A stretch of 39,859 bases of DNA from an uncultured Clostridia bacterium (GTDB lineage Bacteria > Bacillota > Clostridia > TANB77 > CAG-508), in assembly GCA_947625825.1 (NCBI GenBank), contig CANQPV010000071.1, positions 1 to 39,859 on the forward strand. Reading direction: 5' to 3'. Under the pieces are notes generated by a model. That model made no database searches and was not told the origin of the DNA. It saw only the letters and a program-made list of their open reading frames with translations. The translations under genes were made by a program, and so were the position numbers. This document shows positions 12,108 through 34,457 of the stretch, one piece after another. The stretch's first letter is position 1; each line of letters begins with the position of its first letter.

Positions 12108-12635
12108 ATGAAGAAGGTTTTAATAATATCTTTATTATTAGTACTAATGCTAACATTTTCTACTACATTAGTAAGAGCTGCTACAACAGAAGCAGACTTA
12201 CAAAGAAAAGCTTTAGAAATTTTATCAAAAGTAAAAACAGAAACAGATTATACTGCAACAGTTGAAAGAGTTTTCAGACAATATGATTTTACAGAAGAAC
12301 AACTTTCTAGTGCTATGTCTGAAGCAAATAAAATTGAAGCAGTTGTAGAAACTAACGGATCAGACCCAAAAGCTTATTCATCATCTGTAAAAAATTCTTT
12401 AGTAAGCATAGCTCAAACAGCGGCTCAAGATTTAGGAATGCAATTAACAGTTGATTCTAAAAATCATGTAGCTACATTAACAAAAGAGGGTAGTACAGTA
12501 GCGGCTGTAGATACAGAAACTGGAAAAATTAAACAAACAGGTAGCGATAATTTAATGTTTGTAGTATTAGCTGGGGTAGTAGTAATTGCCACTATTACAA
12601 CAGTGGTAGTAAAAAAGGTTACAGCTGATGCATAG
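12108..12635 (+). CDS. Secreted surface protein with sorting-signal-like C-terminus
   Basis: Signal peptide; C-terminus KIKQTGSDNLMFVVLAGVVVIATITTVVVKK resembles a TG motif, hydrophobic stretch and basic tail; next gene is a sortase. Confidence 0.6.
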   Translation: MKKVLIISLLLVLMLTFSTTLVRAATTEADLQRKALEILSKVKTETDYTATVERVFRQYDFTEEQLSSAMSEANKIEAVVETNGSDPKAYSSSVKNSLVSIAQTAAQDLGMQLTVDSKNHVATLTKEGSTVAAVDTETGKIKQTGSDNLMFVVLAGVVVIATITTVVVKKVTADA

Positions 12636-13251
12636 AGAACGTAAAAATAATACTATTATGAAAGCAACTATAAGCAATTTGGTAGTTGCTTTTATATATG
12701 TATTAATAATAGTACTAACTATAGGTATACTTTTTTCATCAACAATTAGCAAGGCAATATCGCTAATTAATACAATATCAATTGATAAAAATAATGAAAC
12801 TTTAGAAGATGTAAAAATAGACTTAGAGCATAATCAGCTACAGTCATATCCAGAATTTGGAAGTAAATACGCAACTATAATAATAGAAGACTTAGATATT
12901 AACTTACCATTATATTATGGAGATACATATTCAATATTAAGATATGGTGTTGGACAGTCTATAGCAGGCTATTTTCCAGGAGAAGGTAAGTCAATTATAT
13001 GCATGGGGCATAATAGTAAAAAATTCTTAAGAAGACTACCAGAAATAAAAATAGGTACTAAAATAAGAATAGAAACAGTGTATGGAAATTATACATATAC
13101 TGTGCAAGAAACTAAAATAGTACACCAAACTGAATTAGATGCTATAAAACCACAAAGAGAAAAAGAAATATTAACATTATATACATGCTATCCGGTAGAT
13201 ACTTTGGGTTATCCAACACAAAGGTTTATTGTTTATGCACCTTTAGATTAA
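12628..13251 (+). CDS. Sortase
   Basis: ICMGHNSKKFLRRL (His), LTLYTCYPVDTLGYPTQRFIVYA (TLxTC...R). Overlaps the stop of the upstream gene. Confidence 0.88.
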   Translation: MHRERKNNTIMKATISNLVVAFIYVLIIVLTIGILFSSTISKAISLINTISIDKNNETLEDVKIDLEHNQLQSYPEFGSKYATIIIEDLDINLPLYYGDTYSILRYGVGQSIAGYFPGEGKSIICMGHNSKKFLRRLPEIKIGTKIRIETVYGNYTYTVQETKIVHQTELDAIKPQREKEILTLYTCYPVDTLGYPTQRFIVYAPLD

Positions 13252-14869: not shown

Positions 14870-14902
14870 ATTGTCGAATTATGAAAATTTGGAGTGAAAA
14901 AA

Positions 14903-16684
14903 ATGAAAGAATTAGAATATCCATTTGATGTGAATTACATAATGAAAAACAAGAAAAAAATAAAAAAAGAATTGTTATTAAATAAAGGTTTAATAGATAA
15001 AAAGATAGCAATTTTAGGAGGGTCAACTACTAGCGAAATAAAAAATATGTTAGAAGTATTTTTATTAAACTATGGCATTAAACCTATTTTTTATGAATCA
15101 GAATACAATAAGTTTTATGAAGATGCTGTTTTTGGCAATGAAGAATTAGATAAATTTAATCCAGATATTATATACATTCACACAACAAATAGAAATATTA
15201 TAAATTACCCAACAATGTATGAGGACGCTAGTATAATAGAGGAAAAACTAAACTCTGAATATGAAAAATTTAAAAAAGTTTGGGAAAAGTTATTTGAAAA
15301 ATTTAATAGTATAATAATTCAAAATAATTTTGAATATCCATATTACCGCTTATTAGGAAATAAAGATGCAAGTGATATTCATGGAAAAACAAATTTTATT
15401 ACTAGACTTAATCAAAAATTTTATGATTATGCTAATAATACAAACAATTTCTTTATTAATGATATAAATTATGTATCATCTTGCTATGGATTAGATAAAT
15501 GGTCAAATCAATTTTACTGGCATATGTATAAATATGCTATGGAAGTACCAGCAATACCTTATTTAGCATTTAATCTAGCAAATATTATAAAATCAATCTA
15601 TGGAAAAAATAAAAAAGCATTTGTTTTAGACTTAGATAATACTTTATGGGGTGGAATTGTTGGAGACGATGGAGTAGAAAATTTAGCTATAGGTCCAGAA
15701 GTTCCAAGCGGACAAGTATATTCTGAAATTCAAGCTTATTTAAAAGAACATAAAAGCTTAGGAATTATTTTAAATGTAAATTCTAAAAATGAATATGAAA
15801 ATGCAATAGCAGGATTAAATCATCCAGCAGGAATATTGAAACCAGATGATTTTATTATAATTAAAGCAAATTGGAATCCTAAAAACTTAAATATTAAGGA
15901 TATTGCAGAAGAATTAAATTTAGGAGCAGATAGTTTTGTATTTGTAGACGATAATCCTGCAGAAAGACAAATTGTAAGTAATTACATTGAAGGAATTGCT
16001 ACACCAGAAATAGATGTACCTGAAAATTATATAAGAATTATTGACCATAATGGATATTTTGAAGTTACAAACTTTTCAAGTGAAGATTTAAAGAAAAATG
16101 AACTATATAAAGATAATGCAAAAAGAAGTCAAATGATGGCAACATTCGATAATTACGATGATTATTTAAAATCTTTAAAAATGAAAGCAGAAATATCTTC
16201 ATTTAAACCAGTATATCTAGAAAGAATATCTCAATTAAGTAATAAGAGCAATCAATTTAATTTAACAACTAAAAGATATTCATTAGCAGATATTGAAGAA
16301 GTAAATAAAAATGAAAACTATATTAAAATATATGGAAAACTAGAAGATATATTTGGAGATAACGGAGTAATAAGTGTAGTAATTGGAAGCATCAAAAATA
16401 AAGATGAATTACATATTGATTTATGGATTATGAGCTGTAGAGTTTTAAAAAGAAATATGGAATTCGCTATGATGGATGAATTAGTTAGGAAAGCTAAAGA
16501 AAAGAACATAAAAACTATATACGGTTACTATTATCCAACTTTAAAAAACAAAATGGTTAGTAATTTTTACGACTTACAAGGATTTGAAGAAATTTCTTGT
16601 GATGATGAAGGAAATAAAGTTTACAAATTAGACATATCAAAAGGATATATAAATAAAAATAATGTAATAGAGGTGTATGAATAA
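14903..16684 (+). CDS. FkbH-like HAD-IIIC protein
   Basis: AFVLDLDNTLWGGIVGDDG...LGIILNVNSKN...FVFVDDNPAERQIV plus C-terminal GNAT-like region. Confidence 0.92.
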   Translation: MKELEYPFDVNYIMKNKKKIKKELLLNKGLIDKKIAILGGSTTSEIKNMLEVFLLNYGIKPIFYESEYNKFYEDAVFGNEELDKFNPDIIYIHTTNRNIINYPTMYEDASIIEEKLNSEYEKFKKVWEKLFEKFNSIIIQNNFEYPYYRLLGNKDASDIHGKTNFITRLNQKFYDYANNTNNFFINDINYVSSCYGLDKWSNQFYWHMYKYAMEVPAIPYLAFNLANIIKSIYGKNKKAFVLDLDNTLWGGIVGDDGVENLAIGPEVPSGQVYSEIQAYLKEHKSLGIILNVNSKNEYENAIAGLNHPAGILKPDDFIIIKANWNPKNLNIKDIAEELNLGADSFVFVDDNPAERQIVSNYIEGIATPEIDVPENYIRIIDHNGYFEVTNFSSEDLKKNELYKDNAKRSQMMATFDNYDDYLKSLKMKAEISSFKPVYLERISQLSNKSNQFNLTTKRYSLADIEEVNKNENYIKIYGKLEDIFGDNGVISVVIGSIKNKDELHIDLWIMSCRVLKRNMEFAMMDELVRKAKEKNIKTIYGYYYPTLKNKMVSNFYDLQGFEEISCDDEGNKVYKLDISKGYINKNNVIEVYE

Positions 16685-16929
16685 TGGAAAAAGAAGAAAT
16701 TTATGAAAGATTAAATAATGTTTTTAGAGACATATTTGATGATGAATCAATAGTTGTAACTGCTGAAACAACTTCTAATGATATTGAAGATTGGGACAGC
16801 TTAGAGCATATTAATTTAATTGTAGCAGTAGAGCAAGAATTTGGAATTAAATTTAATATGAATGAAGTAACAACAATGAAAAATGTTGGAGAAATGGTAG
16901 ATATTATAATGTCTAGAATGAATAAATAA
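16684..16929 (+). CDS. Acyl carrier protein
   Basis: NDIEDWDSLEHINLIVAVEQEFGIKF; DSL phosphopantetheine site. Confidence 0.92.
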   Translation: MEKEEIYERLNNVFRDIFDDESIVVTAETTSNDIEDWDSLEHINLIVAVEQEFGIKFNMNEVTTMKNVGEMVDIIMSRMNK

Positions 16930-16946
16930 TAAAGTGGGTGAATTAA

Positions 16947-17330
16947 ATGAAGTTTCATCATATTGGAATAGCTACTAATAATATAGAAGAAACCTTATCT
17001 AAATTAAAAAAATATTTTAATATTAAAGAAATAAGCAAAATTATATATGATGATAATCAAGATGCTAACTTGTGTATGATTACTTTAGAAGATGGCATAA
17101 AAATAGAATTAATAAATGGAAAAATAGTAGAAAATTTATTAAAAAAAAGACAATATCTATATCATACTTGTTATTCGGTAAGCAATATAAATGAAACTAT
17201 TAATAAGTTAATAGAAGATGGGGCTTTTTTGATTAGAGAACCTAGAGAAGCTATTTTATTTAACAATAAAAAAGTTGCTTTCTTAATGTGGAATTTAGGA
17301 TTAATTGAACTAGTAGAAGCGGAGGATTAA
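16947..17330 (+). CDS. VOC family protein (methylmalonyl-CoA epimerase/glyoxalase-like)
   Basis: FHHIGIATNNIEETLSKLKKYF...YHTCYSVSNINETINKL...FLMWNLGLIELVE. Confidence 0.85.
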   Translation: MKFHHIGIATNNIEETLSKLKKYFNIKEISKIIYDDNQDANLCMITLEDGIKIELINGKIVENLLKKRQYLYHTCYSVSNINETINKLIEDGAFLIREPREAILFNNKKVAFLMWNLGLIELVEAED

Positions 17331-17332
17331 CA

Positions 17333-18853
17333 ATGGAATTAACATCATTTGTATTTTTAATGTTTTGTTTACTTACCATATTAATATATTTTATTATACC
17401 TAAAAAATTTCAATGGTTTATTTTACTTATATCAAGCATTGTTTTCTTATTTTGGAATAACTTTAATATATCTACAGTTATACAAGCACTAATTGTTTTG
17501 ATACCTACGTATATATTAGGTATTCAAATAGAAAAGTATAGCAATACAAAAAAAGGTAAATTGTTTTTAATAATAGGAATCGTAATTATTTTAGGACAAT
17601 TAGCTTATTTAAAATATACAAATTTATTTTTAACAACTGCAAAACACTTATTAAATTTAATTAATATTGAATATAAATTTACTCCAGTATATAGAGATTC
17701 TTTGATAGGAATAAGTTATTATTCATTAATTATGATTAGTTACCTAGTAGATATATATAGAGGAGTATGTAAATCACAAAAAAATATATTTAAATGTGCT
17801 TTATTTATGTCATATTTTCCAATACTTTCTTCAGGACCATTCATTAGGTATAATGATATAAATGAAGATTTGTATGGAAAGCATGAATTTGATTATACAA
17901 GAATGTGTAATGGATTAGTTAGAGTTTTGTGGGGAATATTTAAAGTTTTAGTAATATCTGAAAGATTAAGCATTTTTGTTAATGCAGTTTATGGAAATTT
18001 AGGAAGCTTTAATGGAATATTTATAGTAGCTGCTGCAATATTCTTTACACTACAGTTGTATACAAACTTTTCAGGTTCAATAGATATTATTATGGGAATA
18101 TCAGAAGTAATAGGTATAAAATTACCAGAAAACTTTAGCTTACCATTTTTTTCAAAAACGATTACAGAATTTTGGAGAAATTGGCATATTACTTTAGGTG
18201 CATGGCTTAGAGACTATATATTCTATCCATTACAAAAATCAAATATTATTCAAAGATTAAACAAAAAGTGTAAAGAAAAATTTGGTAAAAAGATTGGCAA
18301 AAAAATACCATTATATCTTACTATGTTAATCATGTGGATTTTAATAGGAGTATGGCATGGAGGAGCATATACATATATTATTGGTTCAGGATTATTACAA
18401 TTTTTATTTATATTTTTAGAAGATATACTAGAACCATTAGCTAAAAAAATAAATAGTAAATTACATATAGATATGAATAGTATTGGCTATAAAATATATC
18501 AAATTATAAGAACATTTTTACTATTTTCTTTCGCTATGATTTTCTTTAGAGCAACAAGTGTATCAAATGCCATAAATATAATTAGAAGTATATTTAATTT
18601 TGATATACCACTATTTACTAATATTAGCCTTATAGAATTAGATATATTTGACTTTATAATTTTAATAGCATCATTAATAGTATTATTTATAATTCAATTA
18701 ATAGCTCGAAAAGGTAGTGTTAGAGAAAAATTATCAAGAAAGAATATTGTATTTAGATGGATAATTTTATATGCTTTAATATTTGCAATTATAATTTTTG
18801 GGTGCTATGGACCAAACTACAATCCAGTTGCTTTTATTTATAAACAATTTTAG
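17333..18853 (+). CDS. MBOAT family O-acyltransferase (AlgI/DltB-like)
   Basis: TEFWRNWHITLGAWLRDYIFYPL; IGVWHGGAYTYIIGSGLLQ; many TM helices. Confidence 0.93.
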   Translation: MELTSFVFLMFCLLTILIYFIIPKKFQWFILLISSIVFLFWNNFNISTVIQALIVLIPTYILGIQIEKYSNTKKGKLFLIIGIVIILGQLAYLKYTNLFLTTAKHLLNLINIEYKFTPVYRDSLIGISYYSLIMISYLVDIYRGVCKSQKNIFKCALFMSYFPILSSGPFIRYNDINEDLYGKHEFDYTRMCNGLVRVLWGIFKVLVISERLSIFVNAVYGNLGSFNGIFIVAAAIFFTLQLYTNFSGSIDIIMGISEVIGIKLPENFSLPFFSKTITEFWRNWHITLGAWLRDYIFYPLQKSNIIQRLNKKCKEKFGKKIGKKIPLYLTMLIMWILIGVWHGGAYTYIIGSGLLQFLFIFLEDILEPLAKKINSKLHIDMNSIGYKIYQIIRTFLLFSFAMIFFRATSVSNAINIIRSIFNFDIPLFTNISLIELDIFDFIILIASLIVLFIIQLIARKGSVREKLSRKNIVFRWIILYALIFAIIIFGCYGPNYNPVAFIYKQF

Positions 18854-18873
18854 AAAGAAGAGAGATTAAAATA

Positions 18874-19923
18874 ATGAATAAAAATATAAAAAAAACTATT
18901 GTGTTTTTACTTATTTTCTTTGCGTTATTATATTGTACAACTAAAATTCTTTGGCTACCGAAAAATTCTGTGGCATATTTTTATGATGAGCCTAAAAATT
19001 CTTTAGATGTTATATATATAGGAAGTAGTAATGCATATGCTCATTTTAATACAACATTAGCATACAATTTATACGGCTATACTACTGCGCTTTTATCTAC
19101 AGATTCGCAACCATTTGTATTAACGAAATATTTAATTAAGGAATCAGAAAAATACCAACACCCCTCTCTATATGTCATTGATTTAGCAAAAGCATCAGAT
19201 TTATTAGATTCTTATACGGGAGAAGAACTTAGAAATACAATAGATGCTATGGAATTCTCAAAAAATAGAATAGATGCTATTAATGAAGCTTTAAGTTATA
19301 AAAAGGATATAAGCAAAAATGAATATGTTAATTATTATTTTAGCTTTTTAATGTATCATAATCGATATAAAAGTATATATGGAAACCTTATTAAATATAA
19401 TACTTTATACAAAGGATATTTATTTGTTAAAGATACTACTATAATACAGCCACAAGATGAATATATTTGGAATAAGAATATGACAGAATTGGAAGAAGAA
19501 AATAATATAATTTTATATAGTTTAATTGATTATATTAAAGATAAAAATATAAATGTATTATTTATAGTACCTAAAAGATACTATGAAACTAAAGAAAATG
19601 AAAAAATAAATCAAATTATTAAAATATTACAAGAAAATAAATTGACAGTTATTAATTTTAATACTTTAGAAGATTTTAATAATATTATAGATTTTAATAC
19701 TGATTTTTATAATGCTAGACATTTAAATGTATATGGAGCAACCAAATATACATTATACTTCGCTAAATATTTAAAAGAAAATTATCAACTACAAGATCAT
19801 AGAGAAGATGAGAAATATAGTTCTTGGAGTACCGAATATGAAAGATTTAAAAAAGACTTTAATAAATTAACTAATAAAAATTTTGATGAGTTATTATTAG
19901 AATATAAAAAAACTAAAATTTAA
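18874..19923 (+). CDS. DltD/AlgX-like SGNH-type membrane-anchored partner of MBOAT
   Basis: N-terminal TM, LDVIYIGSSNAYAHFNTTLAYNLYGY, ARHLNVYGATKYTLYFAKYL. Confidence 0.75.
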   Translation: MNKNIKKTIVFLLIFFALLYCTTKILWLPKNSVAYFYDEPKNSLDVIYIGSSNAYAHFNTTLAYNLYGYTTALLSTDSQPFVLTKYLIKESEKYQHPSLYVIDLAKASDLLDSYTGEELRNTIDAMEFSKNRIDAINEALSYKKDISKNEYVNYYFSFLMYHNRYKSIYGNLIKYNTLYKGYLFVKDTTIIQPQDEYIWNKNMTELEEENNIILYSLIDYIKDKNINVLFIVPKRYYETKENEKINQIIKILQENKLTVINFNTLEDFNNIIDFNTDFYNARHLNVYGATKYTLYFAKYLKENYQLQDHREDEKYSSWSTEYERFKKDFNKLTNKNFDELLLEYKKTKI

Positions 19924-19943
19924 ACAAATTTTAGTTTTTTTTT
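19909..19943. terminator. Rho-independent terminator overlapping the stop codon (usable from both directions)
   Basis: aaaaactaaaatttaaacaaattttagttttttttt. Confidence 0.8.
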
Positions 19944-20023: not shown

Positions 20024-20041
20024 ATTTCGTAAAGTCTAATA
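20024..20041 (+). repeat. Left inverted repeat (IRL) of putative invertible switch
   Basis: ATTTCGTAAAGTCTAATA, perfect inverse of 21122-21139; part of symmetric core ATTTCGTAAA-gtctaatat-TTTACGAAAT (20024-20052). Confidence 0.9.
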
Positions 20042-20098
20042 TTTTACGAAATAAAGATAGATTTTTGTAATATAAAAAAGTATAGTTTTTTTTATAAC

Positions 20099-21010
20099 TT
20101 ATCTAAAAAAAACTTTTTTAGTTTCATAAGAAGAATGCACATATAAATTTAAAGTAATATTTACATCTGAATGACCTAATAATTCACTTAGCGATTTCAC
20201 ATCCATTCCAATCTTTATACAATTTGTAGCAAAAGTATGCCTTAAAATATGGAAATTATAGCTTTTTATCCCACACACTTTTAAACATTTTTTAAATATA
20301 TTTTGATAGGTACGAGGTTCTATATATTTTTTTGATCCTGTTAAAAAATATTCATTTCCAGAATATTTATTTATTTTTTGTAATGATTCTAATTGATGAA
20401 TTATTTTTTCTGGTATTGGAATTTTTCTTATTGCCTTTTTTGTTTTAGGTTCATCAATTTGTATTTTTGTATTTCCTTTTTCTAAATATACTCTTTGTAT
20501 AGTTTTATCTACTAAAATTAAATCTGATTCTATATTTATATTTTCCCATTTTAATGCACAAATTTCACCTAGCCTTAATCCTGTATTCAAACATAAAGCA
20601 ATACCTATATTTTTTAAAGTATTGTTTTCTAAACAATATTGTTCTAATTTTATCTTTTCAAAGTCATTTAAAATTTGTATTTCACTTTTATTATTTCTAG
20701 GACTAGAAATTAAATCTAATTTATAATCAATATTATATTTTCTTTCAATATACTTTAATATAGATTTAAATATAGTAATTATATCTTTTACTGTTTTAGA
20801 AGAAAGAGTTAAAGAAAGATAATCTATATATATATTAAAATCATAGTCTATAAAATAGTAAATATTTTTATTTTCAAAATATAAAAGTATATATTTATTT
20901 ATAAGATATTTATATCTATAATATGTTGAATATTTAATAGTGTGCTTTTTAAATAAAAGCCATTTTTTAATTTCTTCTTTTAAAGATATATTTTTCTTAA
21001 AAATTTTCAT
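20099..21010 (-). CDS. Tyrosine recombinase / site-specific integrase
   Basis: Catalytic residues present: ALCLNTGLRLGEICALKW, HILRHTFATNCI, LLGHSDVNITLNLYVH. Confidence 0.95.
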   Translation of the reverse strand: MKIFKKNISLKEEIKKWLLFKKHTIKYSTYYRYKYLINKYILLYFENKNIYYFIDYDFNIYIDYLSLTLSSKTVKDIITIFKSILKYIERKYNIDYKLDLISSPRNNKSEIQILNDFEKIKLEQYCLENNTLKNIGIALCLNTGLRLGEICALKWENINIESDLILVDKTIQRVYLEKGNTKIQIDEPKTKKAIRKIPIPEKIIHQLESLQKINKYSGNEYFLTGSKKYIEPRTYQNIFKKCLKVCGIKSYNFHILRHTFATNCIKIGMDVKSLSELLGHSDVNITLNLYVHSSYETKKVFFR

Positions 21011-21075
21011 TGATATTACCTCCGTATATAATAAATAAAAATGACGAAATAAAGGATAAAAAATAGAAAAAATTG

Positions 21076-21104
21076 TTGTAATGTTAATACCTTAATGCTA
21101 TAAT
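21076..21104 (+). promoter_or_regulatory. Outward promoter inside the invertible segment, facing the polysaccharide operon
   Basis: TTGTAA-17-TATAAT with extended -10 (TGCTATAAT). Confidence 0.75.
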
Positions 21105-21121
21105 TAATATACATCATAAAG

Positions 21122-21139
21122 TATTAGACTTTACGAAAT
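21122..21139 (-). repeat. Right inverted repeat (IRR) of putative invertible switch
   Basis: TATTAGACTTTACGAAAT, perfect inverse of 20024-20041; degenerate opposite arm acatcataaa at 21111-21120. Confidence 0.9.
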
Positions 21140-21153
21140 AGGGGATGAATTTA

Positions 21154-21780
21154 ATGTATATAAAAATTAAAAAAGTTATAGATTTAGTTATAGCAATTAT
21201 TTTACTGATTATATTCTCTATTCCTATGCTAATAGTTGCAATCTGTATAAAATTAGAAGATAGAGGACCTATTATATATAAGTCAAAAAGAGTAGGAAAA
21301 GATTTAAAAATATTTTACATTTATAAATTTAGGTCTATGAAAACGCAAAGAGAAGAATTACATAGTGAATTATCACATGAAGAAATGGTAACAAAAGTAG
21401 GGAAGTTTATAAGAAAAACAAGTCTAGATGAACTTCCACAATTAATAAACATAATTAAAGGAGAAATGAGCTTTATAGGACCAAGACCATGGATTCTAGA
21501 TTATTATGAGTGGTTTACTGATGAACAAAAAAGAAGAACAAAAGTGCTACCAGGTATATCTGGATTAGCACAAGTAAAGGGAAGAAATGGTATTGATATA
21601 TTTAAAAAAATAGATTATGACTTGCAATATGTTGATAATATAAGTTTTAAATTAGATATAAAGATTGTATTTGAAACGATTTTAAAAGTTTTTACTAAAG
21701 AAAACGCAGAAATAACAGAAAATGGCATAAAAGAGGAATTAGCAGAACTTAGAGAACAAAAAGAACATGCAAAAGTATAA
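21154..21780 (+). CDS. Sugar transferase (undecaprenyl-phosphate sugar-1-P transferase, initiating enzyme)
   Basis: YKSKRVGKDLKIFYIYKFRSMKT; KTSLDELPQLINIIKGEMSFIGPRPW; RTKVLPGISGLAQVKGRN. Confidence 0.95.
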   Translation: MYIKIKKVIDLVIAIILLIIFSIPMLIVAICIKLEDRGPIIYKSKRVGKDLKIFYIYKFRSMKTQREELHSELSHEEMVTKVGKFIRKTSLDELPQLINIIKGEMSFIGPRPWILDYYEWFTDEQKRRTKVLPGISGLAQVKGRNGIDIFKKIDYDLQYVDNISFKLDIKIVFETILKVFTKENAEITENGIKEELAELREQKEHAKV

Positions 21781-21813
21781 TGAACTGAAAAGAAAAAATA
21801 AGGAAATAGAAAA

Positions 21814-22302
21814 ATGAAAACAAAAATTATGACAATTCTTTTAATAATAGTATGGATGGCAGTAGTTTTTAAATTGTCTAATCAAGTAAGTAGTGAGTCT
21901 AGCGCATTAAGTAGAACAATGACAGAAAAAATACTTATATATATGCATATTACAGATAATATGTCAGATAAAGAAGCAAACCAATTAATACAAAAAATAG
22001 AAATAATAATAAGAAAACTAGCACATTATACACTATATATGCTAGGTGGATTATTAATATTATTACATGTTAATTTATATCAAATAAAAATGAATAAAAA
22101 AATAATTATAAGTTGGTTCATAGGAACAGCATATGCAGTATTAGATGAAGTACATCAATTATTTGTATTTGGAAGAAGTGGCGAATTTAGAGATGTATGC
22201 ATTGATTCATTAGGTGTTATGACAGGAATTATGATATTACTACTAATATTAAAATGCATTAAATGTTTTAGCTATTATAAGACAATGGGGGATAATAAAT
22301 AA
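21814..22302 (+). CDS. VanZ family membrane protein
   Basis: FKLSNQVSSESS...RKLAHYTLYMLGGLL...AVLDEVHQLFVFGRSGEFRDVCIDSLGVMTG. Confidence 0.92.
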   Translation: MKTKIMTILLIIVWMAVVFKLSNQVSSESSALSRTMTEKILIYMHITDNMSDKEANQLIQKIEIIIRKLAHYTLYMLGGLLILLHVNLYQIKMNKKIIISWFIGTAYAVLDEVHQLFVFGRSGEFRDVCIDSLGVMTGIMILLLILKCIKCFSYYKTMGDNK

Positions 22303-23417
22303 TGAAAAAAGTATTATTTACGGCAACGGTTGATTCACATATTTTACATTTTCATATACCATATTTAAAAATGTTTAAGGAAAATGGATATGAGGTACAT
22401 GTTGCTACAAATGGAGATGAAAAAATACCATATTGCGATATAAAACATAAAGTTTGTTTTGAAAGAAATCCTTTTAAAATAAATAATTTAAGAGCAATAA
22501 AAGTCTTAAAAAAAATAATAGATAAAGAAAAATTTGAAATAGTACACTGCCATACACCAATGGGAAGTGTAGTAACAAGAATTGCTGCAATTAAAGCAAG
22601 GAAAAATGGAACCAGAGTTATATATACTGCACATGGTTTTCATTTTTATAAAGGAGCGCCTATTTTAAATTGGTGCTTATTTTATCCTATTGAAAAATGG
22701 CTTTCTAAATATACAGATACATTAATAACGATAAACAAAGAAGACTATGAACTTGCCAAAAAGAAATTAAAGAAATGCAAGGACATAAAATATGTACCAG
22801 GTGTAGGAATAGATAAAGAAAAATTCAACTTTGAAATGACTCAAAAAGAAAAGAATGAATTAAGAAAGTCATTAGGACTAAGTGAATATGACTATGTGAT
22901 AATATATGTTGCAGAACTTATAAAAAGAAAAAATCAATCAATGGCAATAAAAGTTATAAAAAAATTAGTACCGGAATATCCAAATATAAAATTACTATTG
23001 GTAGGAGAAGATTCATACAATGGTAAATATCAAGCATTAGTTAAAAAGCTAAATTTAGAAAGTAATGTTATTTTTGCAGGATATAGAAAAGACGTACCGA
23101 AACTTATGAAAATTTCAAATCTTGCGATATCAACTGCTAAACAAGAAGGATTACCTGTAAATATAATAGAAGCCATAGCTTGTGACTTACCATTAATTGT
23201 AACAGACTGTAGAGGTAATAGAGATTTAGTAGATAGCAAACATGTCGTACAAATTGATAATGTAAATCAAATGGTAAAAAAAATAAAACATCAAATTAAC
23301 GAAAAAAGTAATTGTTTCAAAAAGAATAATTTTAAAATGTATGAACTTAAAGAAATAACAAGAATTATGGAAGGAATTTATATTGATGAAAAAAATAAAA
23401 ATTATATTAAAGAATAA
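22302..23417 (+). CDS. Glycosyltransferase family 4
   Basis: VHCHTPMGSVVTRIAA; VIYTAHGFHFYKGAP; ISTAKQEGLPVNIIEAIACDLPLIVTDCRGNRDLV. Confidence 0.92.
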   Translation: MKKVLFTATVDSHILHFHIPYLKMFKENGYEVHVATNGDEKIPYCDIKHKVCFERNPFKINNLRAIKVLKKIIDKEKFEIVHCHTPMGSVVTRIAAIKARKNGTRVIYTAHGFHFYKGAPILNWCLFYPIEKWLSKYTDTLITINKEDYELAKKKLKKCKDIKYVPGVGIDKEKFNFEMTQKEKNELRKSLGLSEYDYVIIYVAELIKRKNQSMAIKVIKKLVPEYPNIKLLLVGEDSYNGKYQALVKKLNLESNVIFAGYRKDVPKLMKISNLAISTAKQEGLPVNIIEAIACDLPLIVTDCRGNRDLVDSKHVVQIDNVNQMVKKIKHQINEKSNCFKKNNFKMYELKEITRIMEGIYIDEKNKNYIKE

Positions 23418-24534
23418 TAGATTTATATATAAAATATATAAATTGATTTTTAATACAACATTTAAAATAATGAAATTATTTATAAAGGTTGACGATAATA
23501 TAATTTTAATAAATTCTTTTGGTGGAAAAAGTTATAACGATAGTCCAAAAATAATATTTGAGTATATGAAAACGCAGGGTAAATACAAAAAATATAAAAT
23601 ATATTGGGCTTTTCAAGAGCCAGAAAAATTCAATATAAATGGAGCAATAAAGATAAAGAGCGATACATTAAAATATTTTATCATAGCTTTAAAGGCAAAA
23701 TATTGGATAACAAATTCATCTATTGAAAGAGGATTAAAATTTAAAAATAAAAAAACAATATATATAAATACATGGCATGGCACACCAATCAAAAAAATGG
23801 GAATTGATGCTCCAAAGGGTGCTTTTAACTTTGATTCTTCTAAATTTGACATTATGTATGCACAAAGTGATTATGATGTTAATATTTTTTCAAGGGCATA
23901 TGAGCTACCTAAAGAAATATTTGCAGTAGTTGGTTTACCACGAAATGATGAATTATTTAATGTTACTCAAGAAGAAATTAATATTATAATAAACAAATTA
24001 AATTTACCTAAAAATAAAAAAATTATATTGTATGCTCCAACATTTAGAGAGTATAAGAGAGATAGTGATGGATGCATTATTGCACCACCTATAGACATAG
24101 CAAAATGGAAAAATAAATTATCAAATCAGTACATAGTTCTATTTAGAGCTCATTATGAAGTAAACAAAGTTCTTGGCATAAAAAGTGATGAGTTTATATA
24201 TGATATGTCGAGTTATAATAACTTAAATGAATTAATGAAAATTTCTGACATATTAATTTCGGATTATTCAAGTATAATGTTTGATTATTCTATTTTAAAA
24301 AGACCTATATTTAGCTATGCTTATGATTTAGAAGAATATATTGAAAAAAGAGGAATGTATTTTGACATAGCAGAGGAATTACCCAATGGAATATGCAAAA
24401 CAGAAGATGAGTTATTGTATAAAATAATTAATTGCAATTTTAAAGAAGAATCTAAAAAAACAGAAAAATTTAGAGAAAAATATATTCAAAATGATGGAAA
24501 CGCACGAAAATATATAGATGAATTAATTAAGTAA
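23386..24534 (+). CDS. CDP-glycerol glycerophosphotransferase family protein (TagF-like)
   Basis: INTWHGTPIKKMGID; KIILYAPTFREY; LISDYSSIMFDYSILKRPIF. Confidence 0.92.
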   Translation: MKKIKIILKNNRFIYKIYKLIFNTTFKIMKLFIKVDDNIILINSFGGKSYNDSPKIIFEYMKTQGKYKKYKIYWAFQEPEKFNINGAIKIKSDTLKYFIIALKAKYWITNSSIERGLKFKNKKTIYINTWHGTPIKKMGIDAPKGAFNFDSSKFDIMYAQSDYDVNIFSRAYELPKEIFAVVGLPRNDELFNVTQEEINIIINKLNLPKNKKIILYAPTFREYKRDSDGCIIAPPIDIAKWKNKLSNQYIVLFRAHYEVNKVLGIKSDEFIYDMSSYNNLNELMKISDILISDYSSIMFDYSILKRPIFSYAYDLEEYIEKRGMYFDIAEELPNGICKTEDELLYKIINCNFKEESKKTEKFREKYIQNDGNARKYIDELIK

Positions 24535-24610
24535 AGCAGTTTAAACAAGCAAAGAAGTAGCATTAATATTATAAATACTTAAATGAATGTAACTAGGGGG
24601 CTATAAAATC

Positions 24611-25867
24611 ATGAATACAAATCAAAAATTAAAGCAAATAATATTAAAAACGATTTTATTATTGTTTTTAATAACATTATTTTTAATGGCATACAAATAC
24701 AATTTCTTAGTACCATTTGTTTTCTTGATGTTTGCAACTATTTATGTGTTTATTATAAGTGCTAAAAATAAAGATATAAAAAATATTGTATTAATAACAT
24801 TTATAATTAGAGTAATATTAGCAATCATTTGCTGTTTTTATTCAGATTCTGACCCTGATGGTTATGGATTAAGAGCTTATAGTTATACATTAATGCCTTT
24901 AGAAGAATATATAAATAATATACCTTTAGGGGCCTATTTCTATGCATGGCTTGTTGGTGGTATATGGAAAATAACAGGGCTTAGTTATGCTTTGATTAGG
25001 TTTATTAATGCTTTTTTGAGTTTTTTGTCGTGCATAATTGCTTATAAATTAACTCTTTCAATTACAAATGAAAAAGTTGCCAAAAGAGTTTTATTATTTT
25101 GCTGTTTCTTTCCTAACTTAATAAGATTTTCAAGTCCATTTGCATCTAGAGAAGCAGTATTTGTATTCTTTTCATTATTGTTTTTTTATAGTACTTATTT
25201 GAACTATACTACGCATAAGGTAAAATATTTAATTATAAGTTTAATTTGTTTATTGCTATCTATGATACTTCATACGATTGCAATATCATATACAATGATA
25301 TATATATATATATATATTATTAGTAATTTAAAATATAAAAAAAAGCTCTTTTCAAACATTGGTGCTTTTTTCTTGATGATTTTATTATTCCTTGTAATAT
25401 TTAGAAATAATATAGGTACTTCGAAATTATCTATGGGTGGAGAAATGGACATTATGGAAAGGGCTGATTTCTTCCAATCTGCTTCTTCAGTTGGTAGAGC
25501 AGCATACTTACAAAATCTACATACAAATAATCCTATAATAACAATTTTAATTTTACCTATTAGAGTTGCATATTTTTTATTTTCACCATTTATATGGATG
25601 TGTAGAGTATTTTTGGATTTATTAGGATTATTTGATGGAATCTTATATTTATTAGTTTGTTATAGAATATTTAAAAATAGAAAATATTTAAAAGAAAACA
25701 AATTTATATTTGCACTTACTTTATCATCTCTATTATTCGTTTGTATTATGGGACTATCAGTTTCTAACTACGGAACTGCGATTAGACACAGACAAAAAAT
25801 AATAATACCATTATTTATTATTAGTGAATCATGTGCTTATTATAAGCAAATAAAGGAAGAAAGTTAA
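24611..25867 (+). CDS. Multi-pass membrane glycosyltransferase/polymerase-like protein
   Basis: About ten TM segments; SDSDPDGYGLRAYSY, FPNLIRFSSPFASREAVFVFFSLLFF. Confidence 0.7.
   Translation: MNTNQKLKQIILKTILLLFLITLFLMAYKYNFLVPFVFLMFATIYVFIISAKNKDIKNIVLITFIIRVILAIICCFYSDSDPDGYGLRAYSYTLMPLEEYINNIPLGAYFYAWLVGGIWKITGLSYALIRFINAFLSFLSCIIAYKLTLSITNEKVAKRVLLFCCFFPNLIRFSSPFASREAVFVFFSLLFFYSTYLNYTTHKVKYLIISLICLLLSMILHTIAISYTMIYIYIYIISNLKYKKKLFSNIGAFFLMILLFLVIFRNNIGTSKLSMGGEMDIMERADFFQSASSVGRAAYLQNLHTNNPIITILILPIRVAYFLFSPFIWMCRVFLDLLGLFDGILYLLVCYRIFKNRKYLKENKFIFALTLSSLLFVCIMGLSVSNYGTAIRHRQKIIIPLFIISESCAYYKQIKEES
25298..25317 (+). repeat. (AT)10 dinucleotide tract inside CDS
   Basis: atgATATATATATATATATATATtattag; encodes IYIYIYI. 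Confidence 0.9.
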
Positions 25868-25869
25868 TT

Positions 25870-26997
25870 ATGAAAGTAGCATTATTTTTACCTTCACTAA
25901 CAATTGGAGGAGTTCAAAGAGTAATTGTTAATTTGGCAAATGGTTTAGATAAATTAGGATGTAATATTACAATCATAGTTTGCGATGGACAGGGAGAAAT
26001 GAGAAAAAAATTACCTTCTAATAGTAAGATAATTGATTTTAATAAGAAAAAACTGCATGGTGATTTAAGACCAATTTTTAGTGCTAAAGAATTAGAAAAA
26101 TATTTAAAACAAAATAAAATTGATTGCTTAATATCAGCACCAGGATTTTCTTCTGTCATAGCATTAAAAGTAGCAAAAAAATTAAAGACAAATACATCTA
26201 TACTACTAATTGCTGATAATAAATTGTCATTGATGTTGAAGAGAAAATTTAGAAATAAAGTGAATTATTATTTATTAAAATTTTACTCTAAAAAAGTTAG
26301 AGCACATATTATTGCGGTTCACCAAAGTGCATATGATGATGCACTTAAGATATTTAAAAAAAGTAAATTTAAAATTCACAAAATATATCACCCTATAATA
26401 GAAAATTTGACTAAAGAAAAAATAAAAGATAAGAACCTTGACAATATTTTAACAAATAATAATATAATAATTTCTGCTGGTCGACTAGTATATGAAAAAA
26501 ACTATATATTATTAATTAAAGCTTTTGAAAAATTACTTAAAGACTATCCATCTTATAAATTATTAATTCTGGGAGATGGAAATTTAAAAGATTCATTAAA
26601 TAATTATTGTAAAGAACATAATTTATGTAAAAGTGTTTACTTATATGGATTTAGTAATTATGTGATTGAAAGTATGAAAAAATCTAAGCTATATGTTTCT
26701 TCATCTATTGAAGAAGCTTTTGGAAATTGCATAGTTGAAGCATTATCAACTGGAGTGAGGATAGTTTCTACTGATGTTGAAAGTGGTGGACCTTTTGAAA
26801 TTTTAGGTGGTGGAAAATATGGCAGATTGTGCCGTAATAATGATGTAAATGATTTATATAAATCTATGAAGAAAGAATTAGAAAATGAAACTTCTAGTAA
26901 AGAAGAAAGAATAAAAAGATCTAAAGATTTTAGTGTTGAAGCATCAGCTAAAAAATATTATCAGCTAATGAAAGGATTAAAAAATGAAACAAAATAA
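25870..26997 (+). CDS. Glycosyltransferase family 4
   Basis: LPSLTIGGVQRVIVNLANGL; ISAGRLVYEKNYILLIKAF; SSSIEEAFGNCIVEALSTGVRIVSTDVESGGPFEIL. Confidence 0.93.
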   Translation: MKVALFLPSLTIGGVQRVIVNLANGLDKLGCNITIIVCDGQGEMRKKLPSNSKIIDFNKKKLHGDLRPIFSAKELEKYLKQNKIDCLISAPGFSSVIALKVAKKLKTNTSILLIADNKLSLMLKRKFRNKVNYYLLKFYSKKVRAHIIAVHQSAYDDALKIFKKSKFKIHKIYHPIIENLTKEKIKDKNLDNILTNNNIIISAGRLVYEKNYILLIKAFEKLLKDYPSYKLLILGDGNLKDSLNNYCKEHNLCKSVYLYGFSNYVIESMKKSKLYVSSSIEEAFGNCIVEALSTGVRIVSTDVESGGPFEILGGGKYGRLCRNNDVNDLYKSMKKELENETSSKEERIKRSKDFSVEASAKKYYQLMKGLKNETK

Positions 26998-27934
26998 AAT
27001 AGGTATATTAATTTTATATTTTGGTAAGTTCCCTAATTATTTTCAATTATTTTTAAATAGTTGTCGTACTAATAAGGATTATGATTTTTTGTTTTTTACG
27101 GATAATGATATAAATTTAACTAATGAAGATACTAACATAAAAGTCTATAAAATGCAATTTGAAGATTTAAAAAAAATTTTTGAAGAAAGATTAAAAACGA
27201 AGATAGATATTTTTTTCCCATACAAACTATGTGATTATAAACCTACATATGGATTTATTTTTGAGGATTATTTAAAACAGTATGAATATTGGGGCCATTG
27301 TGATATAGATTTAATATTTGGAAATATTTCAAAATTTTTGATATGGGATGAAATAAAAAAGTATGACAAAATCCAAAGATGGGGGCATTTAACCTTATAT
27401 AGAAACAATAAAAATATAAATACTTTATTTAAAGAAGAAAATGGTAATTATATCTATTTTAAAACAGCGATGCATATAAAAGATGCTTGCCTTTTTGATG
27501 AACAATCTATAAATACAATATTTCAAAATAATAATATTGATATTTATGAAAATAAGAAATATTATGATTGTATACGTCGTTTTCCATATTTAAAATCAAA
27601 TAATTTTGAATATAGAAAAGGACAAGTAATTGTTTGGAAAAAAGGAGAATTATATCAGTTATATCCTGATACTAATGAAAAAAATGAAATTTTATATATT
27701 CATCTACAAAAGCGAAAATTTGAACATTATAAAGTGAATAATGAAAATAATTTTTATATAACATGTAATGGTTTTTTTGATGTTACAAGTAATATAAAAG
27801 AAATCAGTAAACCTAACATTAGGCATGTCTATAACTTTTATGCAAACAAATTTAAAAAAGTTACTATCAATATAATTAAAAGAAATTTGATTTTAAAGGG
27901 AATTATAAGTGCTGACTTTTTAAACAAATCATAG
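26984..27934 (+). CDS. DUF6625-like polysaccharide biosynthesis protein
   Basis: ILYFGKFPNYFQLFLNSCRTNKDYDFLFFTD; PYKLCDYKPTYGFIFEDYLKQYEYWGHCDIDLIFGNI. Confidence 0.75.
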   Translation: MKQNKIGILILYFGKFPNYFQLFLNSCRTNKDYDFLFFTDNDINLTNEDTNIKVYKMQFEDLKKIFEERLKTKIDIFFPYKLCDYKPTYGFIFEDYLKQYEYWGHCDIDLIFGNISKFLIWDEIKKYDKIQRWGHLTLYRNNKNINTLFKEENGNYIYFKTAMHIKDACLFDEQSINTIFQNNNIDIYENKKYYDCIRRFPYLKSNNFEYRKGQVIVWKKGELYQLYPDTNEKNEILYIHLQKRKFEHYKVNNENNFYITCNGFFDVTSNIKEISKPNIRHVYNFYANKFKKVTINIIKRNLILKGIISADFLNKS

Positions 27935-27994
27935 TCTATCAAATATAGTCTTTCAATTAAATAAATTTAACTTGAAAAATGAAAGGAAAGAATT

Positions 27995-29032
27995 ATGAAA
28001 AACAAAAAAATTTTAACCATAGTTATACCAACATATAATATAGAAAAATATATAGAAAAATGCTTGTCTAGTTTTATAAATGAAGAACTATTACCCAAAA
28101 TAGAAGTTATTGTAGTTAATGATGGTAGTAAAGACAACTCATCTAATTTGGCCAAAAAATACTCTAAACAATATCCAGAAACTTTTATAGTTGTTGACAA
28201 AGAAAATGGTGGACATGGTTCAACTATTAATACTGCATTAAATATTGCAAAAGGAAATTATTTTATGGTAGTAGATGGTGATGACTGGATAGATAATGAA
28301 GCTTTAAACAAAGTGATTAAAGTAATAGAAAATAACCAAAACACAGATGCTGTTTTTTATAATTTTGTTATGGAAATACAATCAAATAAGACACAAAGGT
28401 TTCGCAATTTAAATAAAATTTTTAATGTAGGTAATATAAAATTAGAAAACGCAAAATTTGGGATTGATAGGCAAATAGGATTAGCAAATACTATATATAA
28501 AACGGAAAACTTAAGAAAGATAAATTTGAAATTAGACGAAAAAACATATTATGTTGATGTTGAGTATATGACATATCCATTAATAACGATTCATAATGCT
28601 ATATATGTGAATGAATATGTATATCATTATTTAATAGGAAGACCAAATCAAAGTGTTAATATTAATACAGCTTTGTCTCATATAGATGATAGAAAAAAAG
28701 TTATTATAAATATTTTAAATTATTTCAAAAGTATAGATAGAAATGATATTTCAAAATTTGCATTAAATTCTTATCAATTGAAAATAGCAAGTGTTATTAA
28801 TGATTATTATGGTATTTTAATTTTTGGTGATAAAAATTTTCCAGATAAAATGAGAAAATTAGATGAATTTGTTAAAAGTTCGGATGATGAAATATATCGA
28901 ATTGTTTCAAAAAAATATTTTTATGTATTTTTAGCAAGACATTTTAATTATTCAAATTTTGTAATAAAATTATCATATTTTTTTGATAAGAATTTTAAAA
29001 GATTAAAAAGATTATTAAGAGGTGAAATTTAA
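27995..29032 (+). CDS. Glycosyltransferase family 2
   Basis: LTIVIPTYNIEKYIEKCLSSF...VVNDGSKDNSS...YFMVVDGDDWID. Confidence 0.94.
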   Translation: MKNKKILTIVIPTYNIEKYIEKCLSSFINEELLPKIEVIVVNDGSKDNSSNLAKKYSKQYPETFIVVDKENGGHGSTINTALNIAKGNYFMVVDGDDWIDNEALNKVIKVIENNQNTDAVFYNFVMEIQSNKTQRFRNLNKIFNVGNIKLENAKFGIDRQIGLANTIYKTENLRKINLKLDEKTYYVDVEYMTYPLITIHNAIYVNEYVYHYLIGRPNQSVNINTALSHIDDRKKVIINILNYFKSIDRNDISKFALNSYQLKIASVINDYYGILIFGDKNFPDKMRKLDEFVKSSDDEIYRIVSKKYFYVFLARHFNYSNFVIKLSYFFDKNFKRLKRLLRGEI

Positions 29033-30312
29033 TGAAGAATGTTCAATATTTAATAATTGGAGCAGGAATATCTGGATTAACTTTTGCCAATTACTGTGAG
29101 GGTAAATATTTAATTATAGAAAAAGAAAATGAAGTCGGGGGATATTGCAGAACAATTAGAAGAAACGGATATGTTTGGGATTATTCAGGACATTTTTTTC
29201 ATTTCAAAACAGATGAATTTAAAAATAAATTTATTAATGAAATGCCAAAAGATGAAATAATATACAATGAAAAATGTACAAAAATATTATATAAAGGTAA
29301 GTTTATAAATTTTCCATTTCAAACTAATATACATCAATTAGCAAAACAAGAATTTATAGATTGCTTATATGACTTATTTAACAAGGAAGAAAAGGAAAAA
29401 TATGATAATTTTTTAGATATGCTATATGGAAAATTTGGAAAATCCATAGTGGAAAAATTTTTAAGACCATATAATGAAAAATTATATGCTATAGATTTAA
29501 CTAAATTAGATGTGGATGCAATGGGAAGATTTTTTCCTTATGCCGATAAAGAAGCTATAATAAAAAACATGAAAAATAGCCAGATTAATTCATATAATGC
29601 TAATTTTTTATATCCTAAAAATGGTGCAGAAAGTTTTATTAAGATATTATATGATAATTTGGAAAAGGAAAATATATTATTAAATACAACTGTAGAAAAA
29701 ATAGATATCAATAATAAAATCGTTACTCTTTCTAATGGTGAAAAGATTAAATACATATATTTAATTAATACAATGCCTTTAAATAAACTTTTACAAATGA
29801 TAAAAAATCATGACGAATTATTAGAAGAAATGTCATATAATAAAGTATTAGTATTTAACTTGGGGTTTGATAAAAAATCCCCGTTATGTACTAAAGAGCA
29901 TTGGCTATATATACCATCTAAAAAATGTAATTATTATAGATGTGGTTTTTATGATAATATATTAAACTCAGATAAATTAAGTATGTATGTAGAAATTGGT
30001 TATCCTAAAAATGCTATAATTACACAAGAAATAATAAATGAACAATTAAAATTAACATTATATAACTTGAAAAAAAGTGGAATAATAACTAAAGATATGA
30101 AACTAGTAGATTATGCACCAATAGTAATGGATCCAGCCTATGTTCACATTAATACTGAAACTAATAAAAAAATTTATTGTTTAAAAACAGAATTATCAAA
30201 GCAAAATATATACACAATAGGAAGATATGGAGCTTGGACATATAACTCTATGGAGGATAGCATGGTAGCTGCTAAGGAATTAGCTCAAAAATTAGGTGGT
30301 GAAACATTGTGA
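29032..30312 (+). CDS. FAD/NAD(P)-binding amine-oxidase/UDP-galactopyranose-mutase-like oxidoreductase
   Basis: YLIIGAGISGLTFANYC...IIEKENEVGGYCRTIRRNGYVWDYSGHFFH; GRYGAWTYNSMEDSMVAA. Confidence 0.85.
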   Translation: MKNVQYLIIGAGISGLTFANYCEGKYLIIEKENEVGGYCRTIRRNGYVWDYSGHFFHFKTDEFKNKFINEMPKDEIIYNEKCTKILYKGKFINFPFQTNIHQLAKQEFIDCLYDLFNKEEKEKYDNFLDMLYGKFGKSIVEKFLRPYNEKLYAIDLTKLDVDAMGRFFPYADKEAIIKNMKNSQINSYNANFLYPKNGAESFIKILYDNLEKENILLNTTVEKIDINNKIVTLSNGEKIKYIYLINTMPLNKLLQMIKNHDELLEEMSYNKVLVFNLGFDKKSPLCTKEHWLYIPSKKCNYYRCGFYDNILNSDKLSMYVEIGYPKNAIITQEIINEQLKLTLYNLKKSGIITKDMKLVDYAPIVMDPAYVHINTETNKKIYCLKTELSKQNIYTIGRYGAWTYNSMEDSMVAAKELAQKLGGETL

Positions 30313-31784
30313 AGAAAAGTGTTACTCAAAATTATATATATAACTTAATGTTTCAAATTTTAACGGTAATATTTCCTATTATAACTACTCCATATTTAGC
30401 AAGAATTTTAGGAGCAGAACAAATTGGAATATTTAGTTATACATTTTCTATTGTTACATATTTTGTTTTATTCTCTTCATTAGGTATCAATTTATATGGA
30501 CAAAGAGAAGTCGCTTATGTTCAAGACGATAAAGAAAAGAGAAGTAAGGTATTTTTTGAACTTATATGTGTGAGAATTGTAACAACTACTATTGCTTTAA
30601 TAATATTTTTAACCTTTGCTATGTTAATTAAAGAATATAAAATATATTACTATTTATGGACTTTAGAATTAGTTGCATCATTATTTGATATAAGCTGGTA
30701 TTTTCAAGGAATAGAACAATTTAAAAAAATAATTTTTAGAAATTTAATAGTAAAAATATTAAGTTTTATTAGCATTTTTTTATTTGTCAAAAATTCTAAT
30801 GATCTTAATATATATATTTTAATTTATGCATTAACAACTTTTATAGGTAATATATCTTTGTGGTTTTATTTACCAAATAGTATAGATTTTAAATTAACTA
30901 CAATGAAAAACTTTCATAAAATAGGAATGCATATTAAATCTTTAGTTATTTTATTTGTTCCACAAATAGCTACTAAAGTATATACGGTGTTAGATAAAAC
31001 TATGATTGGTACAATAGTAATTGATAAAATAGAAGTCGGATATTATGAGCAATCACAAAAAATAGTATATTTACTATTAACGATATTAACTTCTCTAGGA
31101 ACAGTTTTAATGCCTAGAATTGCATCATATTTTTCACAAAATAACAAAGAAAAAATCCAAGATGCAATATATAAGTCTTATAATTTTGTTTTTATGATAG
31201 GATTGCCACTAATGTTTGGCTCTATATTATCATCTAAATATTTAATTCCAATATATTTAGGAAGTGAATATGAAAAATCTATATTATTAATGCAAATTCT
31301 TTCACCTATTATTCTATTTGTAGGTTTAAGTAATGTATCAGGAATACAATTATTAATCCCACTAAAAAGACAAAAACAATACAATTATTCTATTATTGCA
31401 GGAGCAATTGTCAATTTTATATTAAATATATTTTTTATAAAGTATTTATCTTCAGTTGGAGCGGCAATTACTACTGTCACAGCAGAGTTTATTATTTTAA
31501 TAATACAATTAGTTTCAATTAAAGATATTATAAATATAAAAAAAGTTTTCAAAAATTCAATAAACTATTGGATAGCTAGTATTGGAATGCTTGTATTTTG
31601 TTATATAAGTATTAATCTTTTAAATTTAAACAACTATATAATGCTTATATTATTAGGAACTTTTGGAGTATCTAGCTACTTCTTATTACTTTTATTATTA
31701 AGAGATAAATATTTAACAAGTATATTTACTTATTTCAAATCTAGAAAGAAACATAATGAAATTTTTGATAAAAATATTGAATAG
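30309..31784 (+). CDS. Oligosaccharide flippase (Wzx/MATE-like)
   Basis: MFQILTVIFPIITTPYLARILGAEQIGIFSYTFSIVTYF; multi-TM. Confidence 0.93.
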   Translation: MKKSVTQNYIYNLMFQILTVIFPIITTPYLARILGAEQIGIFSYTFSIVTYFVLFSSLGINLYGQREVAYVQDDKEKRSKVFFELICVRIVTTTIALIIFLTFAMLIKEYKIYYYLWTLELVASLFDISWYFQGIEQFKKIIFRNLIVKILSFISIFLFVKNSNDLNIYILIYALTTFIGNISLWFYLPNSIDFKLTTMKNFHKIGMHIKSLVILFVPQIATKVYTVLDKTMIGTIVIDKIEVGYYEQSQKIVYLLLTILTSLGTVLMPRIASYFSQNNKEKIQDAIYKSYNFVFMIGLPLMFGSILSSKYLIPIYLGSEYEKSILLMQILSPIILFVGLSNVSGIQLLIPLKRQKQYNYSIIAGAIVNFILNIFFIKYLSSVGAAITTVTAEFIILIIQLVSIKDIINIKKVFKNSINYWIASIGMLVFCYISINLLNLNNYIMLILLGTFGVSSYFLLLLLLRDKYLTSIFTYFKSRKKHNEIFDKNIE

Positions 31785-31796
31785 GAGGAAATAATA

Positions 31797-32807: not shown

Positions 32808-32886
32808 CCTAAAAACTACTTGAAAAAAATATATTAAACATATATAATAAAAAAGTAAGTTTTACTGAAGAAGGGAAGAAAAATAA

Positions 32887-33603: not shown

Positions 33604-33605
33604 AT

Positions 33606-34454: not shown

Positions 34455-34457
34455 GAT

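Follow-up and report, generated by a model that had tools for sequence, protein, structure and literature searches.

The 1,116-bp segment in front of the capsule operon is very probably a self-contained invertible promoter that carries its own recombinase and was assembled in the ON orientation, and we regard this as the best reading of its sequence. The segment lies within the window, the whole 39,859-nucleotide stretch analyzed here, which is one entire contig (C71) of the draft assembly of an uncultured Clostridia bacterium (1.07 Mb, 73% complete; genome label G000). The preliminary description had proposed such a self-contained switch for the polysaccharide operon, and the proposal is borne out by comparative evidence whose decisive weight is well supported, namely the conserved architecture of the relatives, the identity of the spacers within each element, and the occurrence of both orientations against the same first gene. 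The locus is a genuine capsule inverton; its clostridial variant with a tyrosine recombinase inside the segment is new, while the principle is not. The switch is probably functional in the window strain, and we infer from the sequence that the recombinase acts at these sites, that the promoter is transcribed, that the capsule phenotype follows, and that flipping continues in the strain. The features are listed in Table 1.

Table 1. Positions of the switch, its target operon, and the related elements named in the text (window coordinates unless a locus is given)
Feature	Position	Strand	Remarks
Left recombination site	20024-20052	.	Dyad ATTTCGTAAA / GTCTAATAT / TTTACGAAAT
Left site, 7-bp spacer core	20035-20041		TCTAATA
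Right recombination site, inverted	21112-21139	.	Same spacer as left site
Right site, 7-bp spacer	21122-21128	-	Read on - strand
Outward extended -10 promoter	21076-21104	+	TTGTAA-17-TGCTATAAT; sequence match; counterpart in 12/12 elements
Bidirectional A/U-rich hairpin terminator	19906-19941	.	-11.3 and -11.8 kcal/mol; z -4.2 and -5.7
Tyrosine recombinase, 303 aa	20099-21010	-	Pfam Phage_integrase 1.5e-27; Int/XerA matches in PDB
Recombinase SD, GGAGGT	21018-21023		
Weak candidate recombinase promoter	21060-21087	-	TTAACA-16-TATTTT; 9/12 matches
Capsule/exopolysaccharide operon, 14 genes	21145-35174	+	Intergenic gaps -35 to 79 bp
Sugar transferase (initiating glycosylphosphotransferase), operon gene 1	21145-21780	+	Pfam Bac_transf 2.5e-62
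Candidate internal promoter	32820-32848	+	TTGAAA-17-TATAAT; 11/12 matches; before wzz (32887)
TldR-like leader locus, L044	2402-5004		
TldR-like leader locus, L048	3586-4845		
TldR-like leader locus, L045	1304-3911		
Short inverton, L150 (G423:C8)	4082-4369		Same site type; no recombinase inside
Short inverton, L153 (G278:C37)	4054-4236		Same site type; no recombinase inside
Short inverton, L234 (G399:C4)	1096-1306		Same site type; no recombinase inside

Tyrosine recombinases act on core sites made of two inverted arms around a crossover region of 6-8 bp that is identical between the partners. The two sites in the window fit this layout, with dyad arms and a 7-bp spacer that is identical in both. 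The perfect 18-bp inverted repeats reported earlier are present where they were placed (20024-20041 and 21122-21139), and their extension to 22 of 23 matches was reproduced; their existence and coordinates stand, but their length does not, since each repeat belongs to a larger dyad, CGTAAA / 9 bp / TTTACG, and the full sites exceed it (Table 1). Seven of the nine central bases of the dyad (TCTAATA) form an asymmetric core. In the right site, the arm on the inner side is degenerate (CATCATAAA). The only other such pair of 18-mers at most 2.5 kb apart in the window is a short hairpin at 5.17-5.2 kb, and second-order Markov sequences yield 0.01 such pairs per window. The pattern CGTAAA-N9-TTTACG occurs twice in the window, against 0.03 occurrences expected, and no further good site turned up when the pattern was searched for throughout the draft assembly (1.07 Mb, 73% complete). 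The segment falls within the size range of invertons, in which inverted repeats bound a few hundred bp to ~1-2 kb. As assembled, the right joint in the ON orientation reads ATCATAAAGTATTAGACTTTACGAAATAGGGG, and the sequence expected for the OFF right joint after inversion is ATTTCGTAAAATATTAGACTTTACGAAATAGGGG. Near-matches at the ends of contigs C9 and C47 were considered as a second, broken inverton and were rejected, as both fall in the coding region of a repeated surface protein. Two similar copies of this large surface protein gene are found in the window's genome (L011 at the start of G000:C9 and L014 at the end of G000:C47), and their position at contig ends perhaps marks an assembly-breaking repeat or a variable surface locus.

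As described earlier, a tyrosine recombinase gene with a complete reading frame lies between the repeats. R146, H254, R257, H280, and Y290 are invariant in an alignment of seven sequences including the relatives, and the catalytic pattern R..K..HxxR..H..Y can be followed through the protein, with the lysine as a candidate only (K189). The C-terminus reads KKVFFR, compared with LDKL or LEKL in six close relatives. The difference stems from an A8 run (20105-20112) that may reflect an error of sequencing or assembly, slippage in the homopolymer, or loss of function. The weak candidate promoter of the recombinase is divergent from the outward promoter and overlaps it, and 9/12-type matches are common here by chance. 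We consider it unlikely that the segment is the remnant of a once active inverton, now fixed in the ON orientation in the window strain, with a recombinase inactivated by the A8 frame change or recombination blocked by the degenerate arm. The altered C-terminus, the degeneracy of the right site in its inner arm, and the clean mid-contig assembly of the segment would suit such a relic, whereas the catalytic residues are all intact, the spacers remain identical, the 22/23 match is retained, equally degenerate arms are found in the active-looking elements L087 and L044, and the A8 run is possibly an assembly error or slips both ways.

The closest relatives of the recombinase come from rabbit-gut ('Lapin') Clostridia MAGs, and a clade of 16 recombinases (SH-aLRT 96) includes that of the window and 12 of the 13 site-bearing ones. 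The protein belongs to the integrase superfamily, with a PHROG integrase match of 7e-52 and Int proteins among its PDB matches, and this membership would also be expected of a small mobile element, an integrase with its attachment sites, inserted by chance upstream of the capsule genes. Such an origin is extremely improbable: the element is present as a single genomic copy with no cargo, its sites are inverted rather than direct, and in several genera it heads polysaccharide operons with element-specific spacers. In addition, the best phage relative of the recombinase is not close (46% over 76% of the protein), and no close relative was found in viral contigs.

The outward promoter was also found as claimed, at the right end of the segment and reading into the capsule operon. 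The A/T-rich DNA of this region abounds in promoter-like matches (33, against 37 in shuffles), and it is the sequence together with conservation in 12 elements that places a predicted promoter inside the segment, facing the regulated gene in one orientation only. The terminator noted earlier at about 19.92 kb is real and is a bidirectional hairpin, which a strict terminator scan skips because its few G-C pairs leave it below the G-C threshold. Within the segment, the window's terminator 3' of the recombinase is weak (-4.7 kcal/mol, z -1.3), and the left site itself is a hairpin preceding a T run; a clear terminator is present at this place, 3' of the recombinase inside the segment, in 10 of the 12 elements. 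The earlier suggestion of read-through from the recombinase into the operon in the OFF state is thus not tenable as a general design, but leakiness is possible in the window strain because its own intra-segment terminator is weak. In the OFF orientation, no comparable promoter was found upstream of the operon.

The operon begins with the sugar transferase, whose likely start is the ATG at 21154, after GGGG at 21141-21144. It is followed by genes for a VanZ-like protein, a GT4, a CDP-glycerol transferase-like protein, a membrane protein, a second GT4, and a DUF6625 protein (genes 2-7), and by those for a GT2, an FAD mutase-like protein, a Wzx flippase, an epimerase, Wzz, a CpsD-like kinase, and a CpsB phosphatase (genes 8-14). 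With the sugar transferase as gene 1, no member of the UpxY/UpxZ family is found among the annotated operon genes, and an Rfam search of the window returned one tRNA and nothing else. Judged from the sequence of the candidate internal promoter, the last three genes (Wzz, kinase, and phosphatase) may escape control by the switch and be transcribed separately; shuffled sequence gives a similar number of promoter-like matches to the region around it. Upstream of the switch, a separate gene set (14894-19923) encodes an FkbH-like protein, an acyl carrier protein, a small protein, an MBOAT acyltransferase, and an unassigned 349-aa protein, ends at the terminator facing the switch, and perhaps serves polysaccharide acylation. 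Elsewhere in the window are an LPXTG-type surface protein with a class D-like sortase (12108-13251), a prepilin-like protein with an N-terminal methylation-type leader (36121-37074), and a Mob_Pre relaxase close to the contig end (38325-39332).

In the proposed mechanism, the segment-encoded recombinase would bind the arms of both dyad sites and exchange strands within the shared 7-bp spacer, and the segment would flip because the sites are inverted. In the ON state, transcription would begin near 21111 and cross the right site, with translation of the sugar transferase starting at ~21154. In the OFF state, the outward promoter would be aimed at the bidirectional terminator, and the operon would lie behind the 3' end of the recombinase gene without a comparable promoter. 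Inversion would take along both the recombinase gene and the promoter region of that gene, making the switch self-sufficient, and a single capsule is predicted to undergo reversible phase variation as a result.

The same device recurs in related Clostridia. A profile built from seven close recombinases was run against 390 genomes of the family and gave matches in 46 of them. Eleven further recombinase genes lie between inverted dyad sites of this type, making twelve elements with the window, and in all twelve the recombinase, the dyad sites, and the outward promoter are present. A recombinase inside the flipping segment, described earlier as less common, is the usual layout in this recombinase clade. 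The promoter has an extended -10 or is consensus-like, always lies at the same end, beside the recombinase start, and points outward, with its -10 ~30-45 bp from the outer edge of the element (12/12). The two copies of the 7-bp spacer are identical in each of 15 elements, a set that includes three short elements without an internal recombinase and covers L093, L095, and G399, and 14 distinct spacers occur overall. The site arms vary more freely than the spacer pairs within an element. Spacer identity within elements combined with diversity between them is as expected if strand exchange demands identical spacers.

Some genomes also have short invertons without an internal recombinase. Those of L150, L153, and L234 span ~180-290 bp, and in G423 and G278 they are presumably served in trans by the recombinase elsewhere in the genome. 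The recombinase of the window could likewise serve several promoters in trans more than its own segment, with the sites recombining mainly elsewhere, as the short recombinase-free invertons with the same site type in G423, G278, and G399 would allow. This is very unlikely for the window, as its 73%-complete assembly holds one good site pair and the spacers differ between elements, and a recombinase acting on the segment that encodes it remains the favored interpretation.

Orientation was called by which end of the segment lies next to gene 1 of the polysaccharide operon. In the window this is the promoter end, in agreement with the ON state assigned to it earlier. A search for the inverted configuration in related genomes, which had been put forward as a check, found both orientations, with five loci ON (the window, L048, L089, L095, and L106) and seven OFF (L044, L045, L086, L087, L090, L091, and L092), a comparison between species rather than strains in which L045 has the far site alone on its contig and L087 includes no more than the first codons of gene 1. 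L089 and L092 are in opposite orientations despite a shared spacer and orthologous first genes. Among 20 sites not paired around a recombinase, 11 are at most 300 bp from the end of a contig, where 0.9 would be expected. For the recombinase genes themselves, 13 of 40 are at most 1 kb from such an end (4.6 expected). This excess fits assemblies breaking at mixed orientations, or it may be caused by repeats unrelated to mixed orientation. The window segment was assembled mid-contig in a single orientation.

In most of the relatives, the first gene of the operon encodes a ~400-aa protein with a TnpB/Cas12f fold (L044 and L045, with two copies each, L048, L086, L089-L092, L095, and L106), and further leader loci of this TldR-like kind are L150, L155, L158, L161, and L234. 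The protein matches a PDB profile (5e-6), Pfam Cas12f1-like_TNB (1e-8), and PADLOC Cas12f (~1e-11), and Foldseek relates its predicted model, of moderate confidence (pLDDT 72), to Cas12f (2.5e-13) and TnpB (5e-11). By our own motif reading, the RuvC-I Asp and the RuvC-II Glu are replaced in all 12 leader proteins, and the RuvC-III position is Asp in nine and Asn in three. The leader proteins are accordingly predicted to be nuclease-dead, like TldR repressors. A conserved structured RNA of ~120 nt adjoins the leader gene, with 34 pairs, 23 of which show double changes (0/500 shuffles), and it has no Rfam match. The RNA is found in 16 of the 390 genomes, G000 not being one of them, and the leader protein in 13, of which 11 also have the recombinase (p ~1e-9, with relatedness ignored). 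Fifteen of 16 leader genes lie directly behind a dyad site and the remaining one starts at a contig start, so that every assessable copy in the 390 genomes (15/15) lies behind such a site; in G399 and on contig C8 of G423 the RNA sits between the dyad site and the leader gene. Neither the TldR-like gene nor the RNA was found in the window operon or in the window's 73%-complete assembly.

Known TldRs repress flagellin genes, and the csrA-tldR loci of Flavonifractor also lie behind promoter inversions (PMC13418256). These clostridial flagellin loci with hin, in which a nuclease-dead TnpB homologue, TldR, and a guide RNA stand behind an invertible promoter, would by analogy be the nearest precedent for the leader module of the relatives (PMC13418256). 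They differ in that they combine flagellin with a serine invertase, and the string 'capsul' does not occur in PMC13418256; the window itself, unlike them, has no TldR-like gene. No report of a capsule association of TldR was found in the literature searched. We hypothesize that the leader module silences other capsule loci through RNA guidance. Searches for exact or near guide targets with three putative guide types (G221/G372, G431/G278, and G172/G296/G224/G381) returned the RNA itself and background only, and local scans for targets found none. A 'guide' in L044 (TATGACGAAATTT) that resembles a motif (TGACGAAAT) upstream of the inverton promoters of L090, L091, and the window was rejected as too short. 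A broader scheme, which we put forward tentatively and with more doubt than confidence, is a clostridial capsule system in which each ON operon would also make a nuclease-dead TnpB-derived protein and an RNA that silence or set the remaining capsule loci, in the manner of an RNA-guided UpxZ; the window operon would have lost the leader or never had it and would depend on inversion alone.

Capsule phase variation through invertible promoters is best known from Bacteroides. The capsule operons there begin with regulatory genes, UpxY and UpxZ, whose action extends across loci (PMC7315117). The Bacteroides Mpi/Upx system resembles the loci described here in having an invertible promoter ahead of a capsule operon and a regulatory leader slot, which in the window's relatives is likewise filled by a regulator-like gene. 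It differs in that the recombinase here lies inside the flipped segment and UpxY/UpxZ are absent. The relatives have a TnpB-fold protein as leader, accompanied by a structured RNA, and the window has no leader of any kind. Hin of Salmonella is a serine recombinase that requires an enhancer and Fis. The window instead has a tyrosine recombinase and controls one operon, not two alternatives. Its layout with the recombinase inside the segment is shared with the Hin system, in which the recombinase gene and an outward promoter both lie within the invertible segment (PMC2784873). RecV/cwpV of Clostridioides difficile, like the window, combines a clostridial tyrosine recombinase with inverted repeats, in that case 21-bp imperfect ones, and switches bidirectionally (PMC2784873). 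In contrast to the window, the gene for RecV lies apart from the 195-bp switch, and the cwpV switch works by transcription termination and not by turning a promoter. Invertons of group 139 in gut Clostridia, with invertase group 35, have an adjacent tyrosine recombinase and were shown to change orientation over time (PMC11892184). Group 139 thus resembles the window in its clostridial invertons with a tyrosine recombinase nearby, a comparison by layout and not by repeat sequence, but the two examples given for it span ~250 bp, which is too short to hold a recombinase gene.

These findings extend Bacteroides-style capsule logic to small-genome gut Clostridia, where promoter, recombinase, and terminator form a portable cassette. 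The sites follow a readable code of conserved arms and an element-specific spacer, and with this site pattern the invertons of whole genomes can be listed from sequence alone. The greater surprise lies in the relatives rather than in the window, as their consistent combination of a switch with a nuclease-dead TnpB-fold protein and a conserved RNA yields a testable proposal in which capsule loci would control one another through RNA guides.

More distant recombinases, 43-47% identical, are also flanked by inverted repeats (L018, 1-60/1173-1232; L019, 1356-1438/2510-2592; L020, 1425-1463/2518-2556), which are up to 83 bp long and represent a different class of invertible element. In L023 (G038:C58), a recombinase in two frames lies between perfect 28-bp inverted repeats, TTTTCGCAAAATTAGATATTTGACGATA (110-137/1431-1458), and this is probably a decayed element of similar kind.
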